The notes under the pieces: model-generated
Told to the model about the DNA's origin: nothing
The model's database searches: none
Seen by the model: the letters and a program-made list of their open reading frames with translations, nothing else
Shown: positions 19,907 to 32,267 of the stretch, in pieces
Position numbering within the stretch: position 1 is the stretch's first letter
How the letters are laid out: the number at the start of each line of letters is the position of its first letter
Program-made: the position numbers and the translations under genes
Source of the DNA: Chloroflexota bacterium
GTDB lineage: Bacteria; Chloroflexota; Dehalococcoidia; SM23-28-2; RBG-16-64-32
NCBI GenBank assembly: GCA_022561635.1
Contig: JADFQV010000013.1
Location: 1 to 50,342 of the forward strand
Reading direction: 5' to 3'
Length of the DNA: 50,342 bases

Positions 19907-20272
19907 CTAGGCAGCGGCGGCGGCAGCAGTCTTCGCCTTTTCGGCGATTGCTGCGAAGGCCGCTTCGTCGCGAACGGCTAGATCGGCGAGGACCTTGCGA
20001 TCTATTTCGACGCCGGCCGTGGCGAGGCCGTGGATCAGCTTCGAGTAGGTGAGGCCGTGCTGGCGGGAGGCGGCGTTGATGCGCTGGATCCAGAGCCGCC
20101 GGAAGTCGCCCTTGCGGTCGCGGCGGTGCTGGTAGGCGTAGCGCAGCGCGTGCATGACAGACTGGTTAGCCTGCTTGAATATCTTATGACTGAGGCCGCG
20201 GTGGCCCTTCGCCATCTTGATGATCTTCTTGTGGCGGCGACGTGTTACGCCTCCACCCCGTGCTCGTGTCAT
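19907..20272 (-). CDS. rplT: 50S ribosomal protein L20
   Basis: 121 residues. Early assembly protein of the large subunit. The basic N-terminus (RRRHKKIIKMAKGHRG) and the core RDRKGDFRRLWIQRINAASR are diagnostic. It ends in an Ala-rich tail (KTAAAAAA). Last gene of the infC-rpmI-rplT unit, 21 bases behind rpmI. Confidence 0.97.
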   Translation of the reverse strand: MTRARGGGVTRRRHKKIIKMAKGHRGLSHKIFKQANQSVMHALRYAYQHRRDRKGDFRRLWIQRINAASRQHGLTYSKLIHGLATAGVEIDRKVLADLAVRDEAAFAAIAEKAKTAAAAAA

Positions 20273-20502: not shown

Positions 20503-21411
20503 CTATGCCTCGTCCTTCTTCGCGCTGGTCGCCGCTTCCGCCTTCTTCGCGGCAGAAGCATCGCCGTCTTCGGCGGGCGTTGGCTTGGTCTCCACCTTGG
20601 CTTCGACCGCCGCGTCTGCTTTCGCCGGCGCCTTCTTGTCGTCTTCGGCGGGCGCTGCCTTGGCCTCCACCTTGGCTTCGACCGCCGCGTCTGCCTTCGC
20701 CGGCGCCTTCTTGTCGTCTTCGGCGGGCGCTGCCTTGGCCTCCACCTTGGCTTCGACTGCCGCGTCTGCCTTCGCCGGCGCCTTTTTGTCGTTTTCGGGC
20801 GCAGCCTTGGCCTCGATCGCCTTTTCGGCCTTGACTGCCTTCTTGCCGCCGCCGGCTCCGTTTGCCGGCCTTGCTTTGGCCCCGTCCTTCGCCGTCGGCT
20901 TCTTGGCCGTCGGCGTCAGAATCACGGTCAGGAAGCGACCCTCCATCCCTGGGGGCTTCTCAATCGTGGCCGTGTCCCCGAGGCCGTTTATCGCCTTGTT
21001 CAGCACTTCCCGGCCGACTTCCGGATGCGAAATCTCGCGTCCCCGGAACATCACCGAGAGCTTGACCTTGTCTCCCGTGGCCAAGAGCCTGGTGGCGATC
21101 CTGACCTTGAGGTCGATGTCATGCTGGCCGGTTCGTGGCCGCAAGCGCACCTCGTGGATCATCGTCCCGCGCTGATGCTTGCGGGCGTCCCGTTCGCGCT
21201 TCGACTGCTCGTACTTGAACTTGCCGTAGTCCAGGATGCGGCAGACGGGCGGCTTGCCGTTGGAGTCTACCTCTACGAGGTCGAGGCCGGCTTCACGAGC
21301 CCGTGCCATCGCTTCAGCGAACGGGATGATCCCGTAATTCTCGCTGCCCTCGCCTATGACGCGTACCTCGCGTGCGCGTATGCGCTCGTTGATACGGAGC
21401 TCGCGAGCGAT
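20503..21411 (-). CDS. infC: Translation initiation factor IF-3 with long Ala/Lys/Glu tail, ATC start
   Basis: 302 residues if started at the ATC (21409-21411). The frame is closed by a TAG one codon upstream of that ATC. From it the protein reads IARELRINERIRAREVRVIG, the true IF-3 N-terminus; the first in-frame ATG is 34 codons later, inside the N-domain. AAGGGGA sits eight bases before the ATC. E. coli infC uses AUU and IF-3 represses its own rare-codon start, so the same control is likely here. IF-3 N-domain to about residue 75, linker, C-domain to about 175 (GREISHPEVGREVL, the FLTVILTP end). Then an unusual tail of about 125 residues with three 25-residue repeats. Confidence 0.93.
   Translation of the reverse strand: MARELRINERIRAREVRVIGEGSENYGIIPFAEAMARAREAGLDLVEVDSNGKPPVCRILDYGKFKYEQSKRERDARKHQRGTMIHEVRLRPRTGQHDIDLKVRIATRLLATGDKVKLSVMFRGREISHPEVGREVLNKAINGLGDTATIEKPPGMEGRFLTVILTPTAKKPTAKDGAKARPANGAGGGKKAVKAEKAIEAKAAPENDKKAPAKADAAVEAKVEAKAAPAEDDKKAPAKADAAVEAKVEAKAAPAEDDKKAPAKADAAVEAKVETKPTPAEDGDASAAKKAEAATSAKKDEA
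20566..20790 (-). repeat. Three tandem 75-bp units inside the 3' end of infC
   Basis: Units at 20566-20640, 20641-20715 and 20716-20790, nearly identical, with a diverged partial copy continuing to about 20830. Each encodes 25 residues built from KKAPAKADAAVEAKVEAK and an APAEDD link. Being an exact multiple of three and in frame, copy-number change would leave IF-3 intact. Confidence 0.9.
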
Positions 21412-21713: not shown

Positions 21714-23483
21714 CTAGCCTGCCGCCTTTGGTGCGACGTACGTCGGCACCTCCGACTCGCCCCGCATGCGCTCGATGATCTCCGTCACCGGCAGCGCCTT
21801 CAGGTCTTCGCCACTGCGCAGGCGCACGGCGGCGGCGCCTGAATCTGCCTCGCGGTCGCCGACGACGAGCATGTAAGGCACCTTCTGAAGCTGGGCGTCG
21901 CGGATCTTGGCCTGCATGCGCTCTCCCCGCTCGTCGACCTCGACGCGCAGTCCGGCGGCCCGCAAGCTCTCCGCGACCTCATTACCGTAGGGTATGTGCC
22001 GGTCGGCGATCGGGATGACGACGGCCTGGACGGGTGCCAGCCACATAGGGAAGGCGCCTGCGTAGTGCTCCAGGAGGATGCCGAAAAAACGCTCCATCGA
22101 TCCCAGGATGGCGCGGTGAACCATGAACGGCCGGTGTTGCGCGCCGTCTTCGGCGACGTAGTTGATGTCGAATCGCTCCGGCAGGTTGAAGTCGAACTGG
22201 ATCGTCGTCGTCTGCCACTCGCGGCCGAGCGCGTCGATCATCTTGATGTCGATCTTTGGCCCGTAGAAGACGGCGCCACCCTCGTCGATGTCATACGGCA
22301 GGTCATGCGATTCGATGACCTCGCGCAGGATGTTCGTCGACATCTCCCAGTCCTCAAGCGAGCCGGCGTACTTGCCCTTTTCATCCCGAGTCGAGAGGTA
22401 GACGTGGAACTTGTCGAAGCCGAACGCCCCCAGGAAGAACATCGTGAAGTCGACGATGCGCTCGATCTCCGCTTTCACTTGATCGGGGCGGCAGAAGATG
22501 TGGGCGTCGTCCTGGGTGAAGCCGCGGACGCGCATCAGGCCGTGCAGGACGCCTGAGCGTTCGTAGCGGTAGACGGTGCCCAGCTCGCCCATCCTGATCG
22601 GCAGGTCGCGATAGCTGCGCAGGTTGGTCTTGTAGATCTGGATGTGGAAGGGGCAGTTCATCGGCTTGGCGTAGTAGTCCTGTCCGTCGATGTCCATCGG
22701 CGAGTACATGTTCTCTTTGTAGAAGTCCAGGTGCCCGCTCTTCTCCCAGAGCGTCGCCTTGCCGATGTGCGGCGTGTAGACGAGGTCGTAGCCCGCCGCG
22801 AAGTGAGCCGCGCGCCAGAAATCTTCGATGATTGTGCGCACTCGCCCGCCCTTCGGGTGCCAGTAGACCAGGCCCGGGCCGAATTCCTCGTGGAAGGAGA
22901 AGAGGTCCAGCTCGCGTCCCAGGCGGCGGTGGTCGCGCTTCGCTGCCTCTTCGATAGCCTCGAGATGGGCGTCGAGCTCCTCCTGCGTGTCGAAGAGAGC
23001 GCCGTAGATGCGCTGCAACATCGGGTTGTTCTCGCTGCCACGCCAGTAAGCGCCTGCCACACTCATCAGCTTGAACGCCGGCACCTGGCCGGTCCGCTCC
23101 ACGTGTGGCCCCTGGCAGAGGTCGACGAACTCGCCTTGTTTGTAGAGGCCGACCTCTTCGTCGCCGATCTCGTCGATCAGCTCGAGCTTGTACGGCTGGT
23201 CCTTGAACAGCTTTCGTGCCTCGTCTTTCGAGATCAACGACTGCTCGAACTCGACGTCGGAGGCGATCCGCTTGCGCATGCGCTCTTCGATCTCCGGCAG
23301 ATCGTCGAGCGTGAGCGCGCGCGGCAGTTCGAAGTCGTAGTAGAAGCCGGTATCGATCGGTGGACCGATACCGACGCGGGCGTCCGGGAACATCTCGACG
23401 ACGGCCTCCGCCATGACGTGCGCGGCGGAGTGACGGAAGCGATCGAGTCGCTCCTCCTTTGACATCTCTTTCAGATTCGCCAT
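21714..23483 (-). CDS. thrS: Threonyl-tRNA synthetase, form without TGS domain
   Basis: 589 residues from the ATG at 23481-23483, chosen for GAGGAAA directly upstream; the open frame continues upstream but overlaps another gene. The protein begins at the editing (N2) domain: HSAAHVMAEAV near residue 17, GPPIDTGFYYDF, and the SAD region with cysteine. The catalytic core follows: AKPMNCPFHIQIYK (zinc-ligand Cys), HGLMRVRGFTQDDAHIFC, MVHRAILGSMERF, and the anticodon domain from about 480. The N-terminal TGS domain of E. coli ThrS (642 residues) is missing. Its start overlaps the end of the upstream membrane-protein gene by 13 bases; expression is governed by the T-box at 24071-24345. Confidence 0.95.
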   Translation of the reverse strand: MANLKEMSKEERLDRFRHSAAHVMAEAVVEMFPDARVGIGPPIDTGFYYDFELPRALTLDDLPEIEERMRKRIASDVEFEQSLISKDEARKLFKDQPYKLELIDEIGDEEVGLYKQGEFVDLCQGPHVERTGQVPAFKLMSVAGAYWRGSENNPMLQRIYGALFDTQEELDAHLEAIEEAAKRDHRRLGRELDLFSFHEEFGPGLVYWHPKGGRVRTIIEDFWRAAHFAAGYDLVYTPHIGKATLWEKSGHLDFYKENMYSPMDIDGQDYYAKPMNCPFHIQIYKTNLRSYRDLPIRMGELGTVYRYERSGVLHGLMRVRGFTQDDAHIFCRPDQVKAEIERIVDFTMFFLGAFGFDKFHVYLSTRDEKGKYAGSLEDWEMSTNILREVIESHDLPYDIDEGGAVFYGPKIDIKMIDALGREWQTTTIQFDFNLPERFDINYVAEDGAQHRPFMVHRAILGSMERFFGILLEHYAGAFPMWLAPVQAVVIPIADRHIPYGNEVAESLRAAGLRVEVDERGERMQAKIRDAQLQKVPYMLVVGDREADSGAAAVRLRSGEDLKALPVTEIIERMRGESEVPTYVAPKAAG

Positions 23484-23806
23484 CTGTTTCCTCTCATCTC
23501 TTCGTCGTCCTCGTTTGTGTCTTCGTCCCGCCGCGCAGTCGTGCTGCTGCGCGGCGCCGTAGTGGCGGTGGACATCATCCGTTTCCCGGTCGGTGCGCTT
23601 TCTCCCGACAGCAACTGATTCGCCGCAGGCAGTACGATCTGCGCTTCGGCGTACCAGCCCCAGGCCGAGAAAATGATGACCGGCAAGCCAAGCAGCATCG
23701 CCCACCACGGTACGTTTAGCGCCACGATCACGACGACTGCGCAGAACAGGAGACCATGGGCGATGTGCACGAAGTAGATCTCCGCGCCCATCCAGCGGTT
23801 GATCAC
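23471..23806 (-). CDS. Small membrane protein B of the thrS operon
   Basis: 111 residues from a GTG at 23804-23806 that overlaps the stop of the preceding gene (GTGA). Two hydrophobic helices, about 14-30 (GLLFCAVVVIVALNV) and 34-50, then a hydrophilic Ser/Thr/Arg/Glu/Asp-rich tail. Charge pattern puts a short MINRWMGAE start before helix 1. No recognised family. Coupled to thrS, whose start lies inside its last codons. Confidence 0.7.
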   Translation of the reverse strand: MINRWMGAEIYFVHIAHGLLFCAVVVIVALNVPWWAMLLGLPVIIFSAWGWYAEAQIVLPAANQLLSGESAPTGKRMMSTATTAPRSSTTARRDEDTNEDDEEMRGNRWRI

Positions 23807-24036
23807 GACGTTGGCCCTCTGCCGAATCGGTAAAGGAGCCAGTAGTGAACGGCCATCAGCCCGATGGCGAGGAGACCCAGTCCGAACATCGCGCCCGCCA
23901 GGGCCCAGCGCCCGTCCGCCGCGGCGATGCCGCCGAAGATGACGGCCGCAGCGAGCATGGCGATGGGCACAGCCAACATCCAGACGCGTAAGAGTAGCAT
24001 CGTCAGGCTGTTGTCGTCGATCGATCCCTGTGCCAT
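23803..24036 (-). CDS. Small membrane protein A of the thrS operon
   Basis: 77 residues with two hydrophobic helices (about 13-38 and 44-66) separated by an ADGRW turn, ending in YRFGRGPTS. First gene behind the T-box terminator. ATG at 24034-24036 with GGAAGGAAG about eleven bases upstream. No recognised family; with gene B it looks like a two-protein membrane pair. Confidence 0.7.
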   Translation of the reverse strand: MAQGSIDDNSLTMLLLRVWMLAVPIAMLAAAVIFGGIAAADGRWALAGAMFGLGLLAIGLMAVHYWLLYRFGRGPTS

Positions 24037-24070
24037 CAGGCTGTCGCTTCCTTCCTCGTGTCGCCTGCCA

Positions 24071-24345
24071 ACAGAAGAAGCCCCCGCCCAACGTTGGGAC
24101 GGGGGCTTCCCGTGGTTCCACCCAGCTTCTCCGCCCGGCGGCGATGCATCGCTCGTCCGGCGGACTCATTTGGCCGCTAACGGGTGCCTCCGGGCCGCTT
24201 ACGTCCGACAGGTGGACATCGCGACCGGCTCGCGGGTGGTTTCGCCGTGGCAGTGGACCGGCTCGCTCTCAGTCCCCCTCGGGGGTGCTCGCCTCCCTGT
24301 TGCCGTGCGCCGGCTACTGTTCCCGGTCAGCGCCTTTCGTATTCA
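24071..24345 (-). ncRNA. Threonine T-box riboswitch (leader of the thrS operon)
   Basis: Minus-strand RNA with the T-box layout. A stem I base pairs GACCGG (about 24327-24322) with CCGGTC (about 24228-24223). The 5' side of the specifier loop reads GAACAGTA, the 3' side GAA-ACC-A, giving specifier ACC (24240-24238), a threonine codon. A distal arm with GACTGAGAG text follows, then linker stems. The T-box sequence GGGTGGAACCACGG is at about 24123-24110 and then the terminator. Bulge TGGA predicts a tRNA-Thr with U at the discriminator position. Uncharged tRNA-Thr would allow read-through into the two membrane genes and thrS. The specifier was placed by eye; the T-box and terminator are clear. 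Confidence 0.9.
24076..24109 (-). terminator. T-box terminator hairpin
   Basis: GAAGCCCCC pairs with GGGGGCTTC around an inner CCCAACGTTGGG palindrome, then CTTCTGTT. The pyrimidine tail is poor in T, but stem and position right after the T-box sequence make it the regulated terminator. Confidence 0.85.
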
Positions 24346-24348
24346 GAG

Positions 24349-24425
24349 TGGTGGGCGATGTAGGATTTGAACCTACGACCTCAGCGATGTCAACGCTGCG
24401 CTCTAACCAACTGAGCTAATCGCCC
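24349..24425 (-). tRNA. tRNA-Val (anticodon GAC)
   Basis: 77 bases including encoded CCA. Acceptor GGGCGAT pairs with ATCGCCC; D arm GCTCAGTTGGTTAGAGC; anticodon stem CAGCG/CGCTG around loop TTGACAT; T arm AGGTTCAAATCCT. Discriminator A. The 3' end lies only about 25 bases before the first recognisable T-box element, so the two are probably one transcript. Confidence 0.97.
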
Positions 24426-24437
24426 ACGCTCTGGAAC

Positions 24438-24467
24438 ATCGTATCAATCGATGAGGAAGGTGGTCAA
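24438..24467 (-). promoter_or_regulatory. Promoter of tRNA-Val (and probably the T-box/thrS unit)
   Basis: On minus: TTGACC (24462-24467), an 18-base spacer and TACGAT (24438-24443), 12 bases before the tRNA. It is the only promoter-like pair I see upstream of the T-box. Confidence 0.7.
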
Positions 24468-24565
24468 CGAAACGGCGGATGGCGCTGTTGCCCTTGATTC
24501 GTTGGCGCGCTTCCTGAGACAATGTAATGGCGATGGCCCCAGTCCGTTGCGGAGGGGTCGTTTCG

Positions 24566-24595
24566 TTGCCTTGCTTTTCGGGTGCGTGCTATACT
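24566..24595 (+). promoter_or_regulatory. Promoter of tRNA-Lys
   Basis: TTGCCT (24566-24571), an 18-base spacer and TATACT (24590-24595); predicted start about 27 bases before the tRNA. No terminator is seen after tRNA-Leu, so tRNA-Lys, tRNA-Leu and the two ABC ATPase genes may share it. The 24426-24565 stretch between the divergent promoters holds nothing else I recognise. Confidence 0.65.
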
Positions 24596-24628
24596 GCGCG
24601 AACCTGATAAAACGAGGCCAAATAGGAT

Positions 24629-24704
24629 GGGCCACTAGCTCAATTGGCAGAGCAAGCGACTCTTAATCGCTAGGTTCAAGGTTCGAGTCCTTGGTGGCCC
24701 ACCA
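24629..24704 (+). tRNA. tRNA-Lys (anticodon CTT)
   Basis: 76 bases including encoded CCA. GGGCCAC pairs with GTGGCCC; D arm AGCTCAATTGGCAGAGC; anticodon stem AGCGA/TCGCT around loop CTCTTAA; T arm CAAGGTTCGAGTCCTTG. Discriminator A. Confidence 0.97.
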
Positions 24705-24797
24705 GGTTAAGAACAAACGATGTTGGCACTTCAACCCGCACGGCAAGATACGGACTACGTGGACGGAGTTCCGCATCGGCTTGACGTAGTACGCGCC

Positions 24798-24882
24798 GGG
24801 GAAGTGTCGGAATTGGTAGACGAGCGTGATTTAGGTTCACGTGCCGAAAGGCGTGGGGGTTCGAGTCCCCCCTTCCCCACCA
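24798..24882 (+). tRNA. tRNA-Leu (anticodon TAG)
   Basis: 85 bases including encoded CCA. GGGGAAG pairs with CTTCCCC; anticodon stem CGTGA/TCACG around loop TTTAGGT; a long variable arm (TGCCGAAAGGCG) as in class II tRNAs; T arm GGGGGTTCGAGTCCCCC. A GC hairpin (24891-24904) follows without a T-run. Confidence 0.97.
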
Positions 24883-24926
24883 GGCGAGCGGGGCCCGGCG
24901 GCCCTGTCGGAACTAAGGAGGGTTAG

Positions 24927-25943
<1,017 letters not shown>

Positions 25944-31994: not shown

Positions 31995-32267
31995 TTGGTC
32001 GTGCTAGACGGGGAGCTAGCGGTGCCCTGAACCCGCAATCCGCTACAGCGGGGTCGAATTCCCGCTCGAGGTCGAGGCTCCGCAGAGACTACCCGTAACA
32101 AGTGGCATTGATGGTCTGGCCCTGCGCGGCAGGCCGCCACCAACCCCGCCAGATCCGGAAGGAAGCAACGGTACGTGGTTAGGTCTGGGTGCCGTAGGTA
32201 AACCGGACCGGAGCTGGCTATTACGGGCAAGACTGAGGACTGAGATCGACAGCGGGTGCACGACCGG
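31995..32267 (+). ncRNA. ffs: Large-type signal recognition particle RNA
   Basis: About 273 bases. Closing helix GGTCGTGC (31997-32004) with GCACGACC (32258-32265). The Alu-type 5' domain shows GGGGAGCTAGCGGTGCCCTG and AACCCGCAATCCGCTACAGC followed by an AGCGGGG/CCCGCT stem. Central helix pairings include CCCGTAA with TTACGGG (32221-32227) and GTCGA with TCGAC. The Ffh-binding domain IV is AGATCCGGAAGGAAGCAACGG at about 32151-32171 with the GGAA tetraloop at 32157-32160. A GCGCC-GAAA-GGCGC hairpin (about 32271-32284) without T-run follows and may help end the transcript. This fills most of the 440-base gap between galU and the next gene. Confidence 0.95.

Follow-up and report, generated by a model that had tools for sequence, protein, structure and literature searches.

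The threonine T-box leader of thrS in this Chloroflexota bacterium very probably belongs to a single minus-strand transcription unit which, judging from sequence comparison, would start at a tRNA-type promoter (24467-24438) and proceed via tRNA-Val(GAC), the T-box and two small open reading frames (ORFs) into thrS-infC-rplT. The analysed stretch of 50,342 nucleotides, here called the window, is contig C51 of an assembly of 1.8 Mb (83 contigs, 84% complete). By its ThrS the organism belongs to Chloroflexota, with Dehalococcoidia as the likely class: the nearest named record was that of Chloroflexi bacterium B46T1L10 (96%), and a MAG named Dehalococcoidia gave 80%. On the minus strand the elements are arranged in the following order:

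24438..24467, minus strand: sigma70-type promoter-like site TTGACC-18-TACGAT with a TG before the -10 element, 12 nt 5' of tRNA-Val (promoter scans; 15 of the 18 adjacent tandems share this type of site before the tRNA)
24349..24425, minus strand: tRNA-Val(GAC) with encoded CCA and discriminator A73 (ARAGORN and Rfam, 75 bits)
24336..24348, minus strand: 13-nt spacer (tRNA trailer) from the CCA to stem I of the T-box, too small for a promoter or a terminator
24111..24335, minus strand: threonine T-box leader, stem I through T-box sequence (RF00230 match and orthologue alignment)
24238..24240, minus strand: ACC specifier for Thr, unchanged throughout the 30 aligned orthologues
24123-24111, minus strand: T-box sequence GGGTGGAACCACG
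24117..24120, minus strand: T-box bulge UGGA, which pairs with UCCA of the organism's own tRNA-Thr(GGU) and not with ACCA of tRNA-Val
24071..24108, minus strand: T-box terminator hairpin AAGCCCCCGTCCCAACGTTGGGCGGGGGCTTCTTCT, probably the sole terminator of the tRNA transcript as well
23803..24036, minus strand: ORF A, small hydrophobic protein of 77 aa
23471..23806, minus strand: ORF B, small membrane protein of 111 aa, which overlaps ORF A at GTGA and also the start of thrS
21714..23483, minus strand: thrS, threonyl-tRNA synthetase (TIGR00418, 738 bits)
20503..21309, minus strand: infC, translation initiation factor IF-3
19907..20272, minus strand: rplT, ribosomal protein L20

No Pfam match above cut-off was obtained for ORF A and ORF B (23471-24036), and the genomes G011, G015 and G019 have no space for them between the T-box and thrS. 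The 35 tRNA hits of the 84% complete assembly include no second tRNA-Val(GAC). Elsewhere in the window a bacterial large SRP RNA was detected on the plus strand (31999-32263, 183 bits).

The match of the window leader to RF00230 (24339-24092, minus strand) was full-length (model positions 1-219, E=4.7e-6) but reached 36 bits against a gathering score of 93, so that its identity as a T-box rests on the higher-scoring orthologues and on an alignment of 30 orthologous leaders. The former scored between 55.8 and 93.0 bits, with L189 at the 93-bit gathering score. In the alignment the ACC specifier and the UGGAACC T-box are invariant and the terminator is present. Furthermore, 16 of the 23 predicted consensus pairs are kept through two-sided changes in at least one sequence, stem I and the terminator helices being supported by covariation. 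The terminator in the window carries a weak uridine tail. The specifier fits the regulated gene thrS and the UGGA bulge is complementary to the UCCA end of tRNA-Thr(GGU); specifier, UGGA and U73 of tRNA-Thr are thus concordant, and the T-box should read tRNA-Thr. The upstream tRNA-Val was ruled out as its ligand, given the threonine specifier and the mismatch between UGGA and the ACCA end of tRNA-Val.

A scan of the region 23500-25200 revealed two promoter-like sites on both strands together, compared with 0.3 expected in shuffled sequences, one before each of two divergent tRNA units. The only one on the minus strand is TTGACC-18-TACGAT before tRNA-Val, and a separate minus-strand scan from 24600 to thrS gave no further site with at least 8 of 12 matches, in agreement with the preliminary description, which had named this pair as the only one upstream. 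These calls are consensus matches, which unusual promoter types may escape. No promoter was detected either for the separate start at 24325-24348 that the preliminary description had named as contradicting its proposal. An independent promoter between the T-box terminator and thrS was considered and dismissed, as the scan offered no candidate site there. The preliminary description had also placed the T-box closely 3' of the tRNA, which is correct; its spacing of about 25 bases counts to a later conserved element, stem I beginning 13 nt after the CCA. At this locus tRNA-Val and the T-box lie on the same strand, the promoter-like site is found only before the tRNA and no terminator separates the two, as expected of a tRNA-mRNA unit.

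Most relatives of the same family or order in which the region is assembled have tRNA-Val(GAC) upstream of thrS, as do many others of the class, and the retention of the pair in so many genomes excludes a chance arrangement. The comparison set comprised 40 Chloroflexota thrS T-boxes. In 18 of them tRNA-Val lies directly 5' with a gap to stem I of 3-51 nt, confirming the conservation among relatives on which the preliminary description had made its proposal depend; the other 22 have the tRNA flipped, at a distance or not at all. The shortest gap (about 3 nt) is that of G027; here the T-box match of Rfam begins on the tRNA CCA. Promoters were counted if they scored at least 8.5 within 75 nt before stem I, the anchors of which were set by hand, or before the tRNA. 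None of the 18 adjacent tandems has such a site before stem I, and 15 have one before the tRNA. In G002 and G003 the promoter is located 62-77 nt before the tRNA behind an insert of about 65 nt, and G023 has no site by this score before its tRNA. Among the 22 non-adjacent T-boxes, 13 are directly preceded by a promoter of this score and nine are not. The difference between 13/22 and 0/18 corresponds to a Fisher p of 4e-5 (12/20 vs 0/14, p=2e-4, when collapsed by lineage), values to be taken as a guide rather than a pre-planned test since the score, the 8.5 cut-off and the collapse, made by hand because genomes share ancestry, were chosen while viewing the loci.

The same contrast can be followed within one family. 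The adjacent tandems of G011 and G013 carry TTGACT-17-TAGCAT before the tRNA, whereas in G009, G012 and G014 tRNA-Val is reversed and TTGACG-17/18-TACGAT precedes the T-box. In G008, a member of the genus of G011 and G013, the tRNA is flipped and a weaker site (8.0, TTGTCG-17-TAGTAT) lies before the T-box. At locus L185 a gene intervenes between tRNA and T-box, and the latter is preceded by TTGACA-18-TAGAAT. Co-transcription of tRNA-Val and T-box is well supported by the sequence comparison: the gap leaves no room for a promoter and no site was found in it, the arrangement recurs in the phylum, and a promoter mostly precedes the T-box where the tRNA is not adjacent. On the same grounds there is strong support for the suggestion of the preliminary description that the T-box RNA is born joined to a tRNA. 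An exact-pattern scan for tandems in 150 genomes of the phylum yielded a single match (L250), the pattern being too narrow to recover even the window.

Several loci show rearrangements around the tRNA. The insert of about 65 nt between promoter and tRNA-Val was observed in L033 (G002) and L093 (G003); in G003 it carries a repeat of the first bases of the tRNA (CGTGGGCGATT) and resembles a small element with target duplication. In L049 (G021) just the 3' part of tRNA-Val is left before the threonine T-box, beside AT-rich DNA, as if an element had integrated by way of the tRNA gene and severed the T-box from its promoter.

Nothing resembling a terminator was found in the gap between tRNA and T-box in 18 of 19 tandems, mostly for want of room; the exception is L194, in which a terminator-like hairpin lies inside the gap. 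In several Dehalococcoidia without a recognised threonine T-box (L042-L045 and L061) tRNA-Val is soon followed by a plain hairpin and T-run. The hairpin in L061 is similar to a T-box terminator and is perhaps a remnant of one. In the tandems, the T-box terminator probably doubles as the terminator of the tRNA transcript.

A second tandem was detected in the same genome (L082, G000:C4, 709-1548), where tRNA-Ala(GGC) is followed after about 12 nt by a leucine T-box (specifier CUC, bulge UGGU), mgtC and leuS. This tandem is present in all four members of the genus (L082, L084, L089 and L091), and the promoter-like sequence ahead of its tRNA is conserved. Elsewhere in the family and order, tRNA-Ala often remains upstream of the leucine T-box, at a distance of 44-176 nt. 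As the specifier CUC reads as Leu, tRNA-Ala was ruled out as ligand. In L018 (gap 1376-1500) and L097 (gap 503-677) a palindromic repeat (TGTCATTCTGAG...CTCAGAATGACA) is inserted between tRNA-Ala and the T-box. Two further candidates were rejected. In L024 (G027, 1372-1725) tRNA-Arg(GCG) lies 54 nt before the leucine T-box of an ilvN-like gene, but the gap holds TTGACA-17-TAGGCT (read by eye). The "tRNA-Tyr(ata)" before a T-box in L005 was taken as a false positive of ARAGORN since Rfam finds no tRNA there. In the Bacillota control a tRNA was found within 60 nt of a T-box in none of 30 cases. The nearest case, L228 (G064) with a distance of 293 nt, consists of tRNA-Val(GAC), a terminator, a promoter, the T-box and a pheS-like gene (read by eye), i.e. 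of insulated neighbours.

Alternatively, the T-box could possess its own promoter, either concealed within the tRNA gene or of an unrecognised type, with the tRNA adjacency being merely positional. The promoters of the 13 non-adjacent thrS T-boxes and the separately promoted T-box behind a terminated tRNA in L228 speak for this reading, and unusual promoters would be invisible to consensus scans. We nevertheless consider this highly unlikely, as a site before stem I is missing in all 18 adjacent cases with gaps down to 3 nt, the tRNA sequence is under functional constraint, and the contrast with the flipped relatives speaks against a generally hidden promoter. Unlikely too, though somewhat less so, is a regulatory coupling in which folding or stability of the T-box requires its cleavage from the tRNA, so that tRNA processing would be a second input to thrS expression. 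The very short spacer would indeed place an uncleaved tRNA next to stem I, and two tandems occur within one genome. However, the predicted fold keeps most T-box helices with or without the tRNA, and the T-box persists in genomes whose tRNA is flipped, distant or missing, which indicates that, in general, a T-box works without such processing.

An obligatory coupling between tRNA and T-box hence seems unlikely on sequence grounds; since flipped genomes retain the T-box, the link is better regarded as a default supply of a promoter than as a requirement. The dependence of thrS on the tRNA promoter and on RNase activity, as proposed in the preliminary description, therefore holds only as far as this default supply is concerned and not as an obligatory link. 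Compatible with co-transcription is a historical reading, according to which the T-box entered an ancient tRNA-Val-thrS unit and read-through from the tRNA is simply inherited thrS transcription without added function; to us this appears just as likely to be right as wrong. It would account for loci titled Nitrospirae, Acidobacteria, Spirochaetes, Planctomycetota, Elusimicrobia and Aminicenantes, in which tRNA-Val(GAC) lies directly upstream of thrS and no T-box is present, and for flips of the tRNA without loss of the T-box, but it leaves the second tandem with tRNA-Ala, the leucine T-box and leuS unexplained. Taken together, the adjoining tRNA probably supplies the promoter, being convenient rather than essential, in a layout inherited from an older tRNA-Val-thrS unit.

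In the co-transcribed unit, RNA polymerase would initiate at the tRNA promoter and produce a tRNA-T-box precursor. With charged tRNA-Thr the T-box terminator would end the transcript, serving the tRNA as well, and binding of uncharged tRNA-Thr(GGU) to the specifier ACC and the bulge UGGA would permit read-through into thrS. Ordinary 5' and 3' tRNA maturation would excise tRNA-Val, and the 5' end of the remaining T-box RNA or thrS mRNA would be generated by processing; the release by tRNA 3' processing that the preliminary description had proposed is expected from general tRNA maturation.

Co-transcription of tRNA and mRNA is classical, the E. coli thrU-tyrU-glyT-thrT-tufB operon being a polycistronic unit of this kind. 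As in that operon, a tRNA promoter would drive a downstream translation gene and processing would be expected to excise the tRNA, but in the present locus tRNA and mRNA are separated by a riboswitch that senses tRNA and carries a conditional terminator. With the T-box-controlled thrS-infC-rpmI-rplT operons of Bacillota the locus shares a specifier for the regulated synthetase, the UGGN bulge, the terminator/antiterminator and the operon itself. It differs in the non-cognate tRNA gene before the leader, which is the sole recognisable source of a promoter, and in the single T-box; for Clostridium, tandem T-boxes before thrS-infC-rpmI-rplT are described (PMC12452182). The tRNA-Val(GAC)-thrS loci of other phyla have the same tRNA on the same strand upstream of thrS and lack the T-box, which suggests that the tRNA-Val-thrS neighbourhood is probably the older arrangement and the T-box an element inside it.

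T-boxes of Dehalococcoides (ile, trp) are reported in T-box surveys and reviews (PMC2494555, PMC7778990, PMC7583486, PMC12452182, PMC3766115), and term searches within them gave no tRNA genes before T-boxes. More generally, the literature searched, the scope of which excluded most subscription papers, contained no description of a T-box immediately preceded by a tRNA gene; in these papers the impression of the preliminary description that the context is a new one was borne out. What appears to be new, measured against these papers, is the T-box with a tRNA gene directly 5', T-boxes before thrS and tRNA-mRNA co-transcription being already known.

Tentatively, and with slightly less than even confidence, the reading may be extended to ThrRS T-boxes of Chloroflexota and to the LeuRS T-box in the source genus, each of which would routinely be transcribed as the 3' trailer of an unrelated tRNA. 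The T-box would then act as the regulated terminator of the tRNA gene, with the 5' end of its RNA arising from tRNA processing and synthetase supply being scaled to tRNA transcription ahead of amino-acid sensing. Where a T-box is annotated from stem I onward, the actual site of transcription initiation can be overlooked, and the flipped relatives represent natural controls. If the proposed unit is real, a tRNA gene would have the T-box as its conditional terminator, and a tRNA promoter would govern expression of the synthetase together with IF3 and L20. Growth-rate control of the tRNA and amino-acid sensing would then act in series on one RNA.
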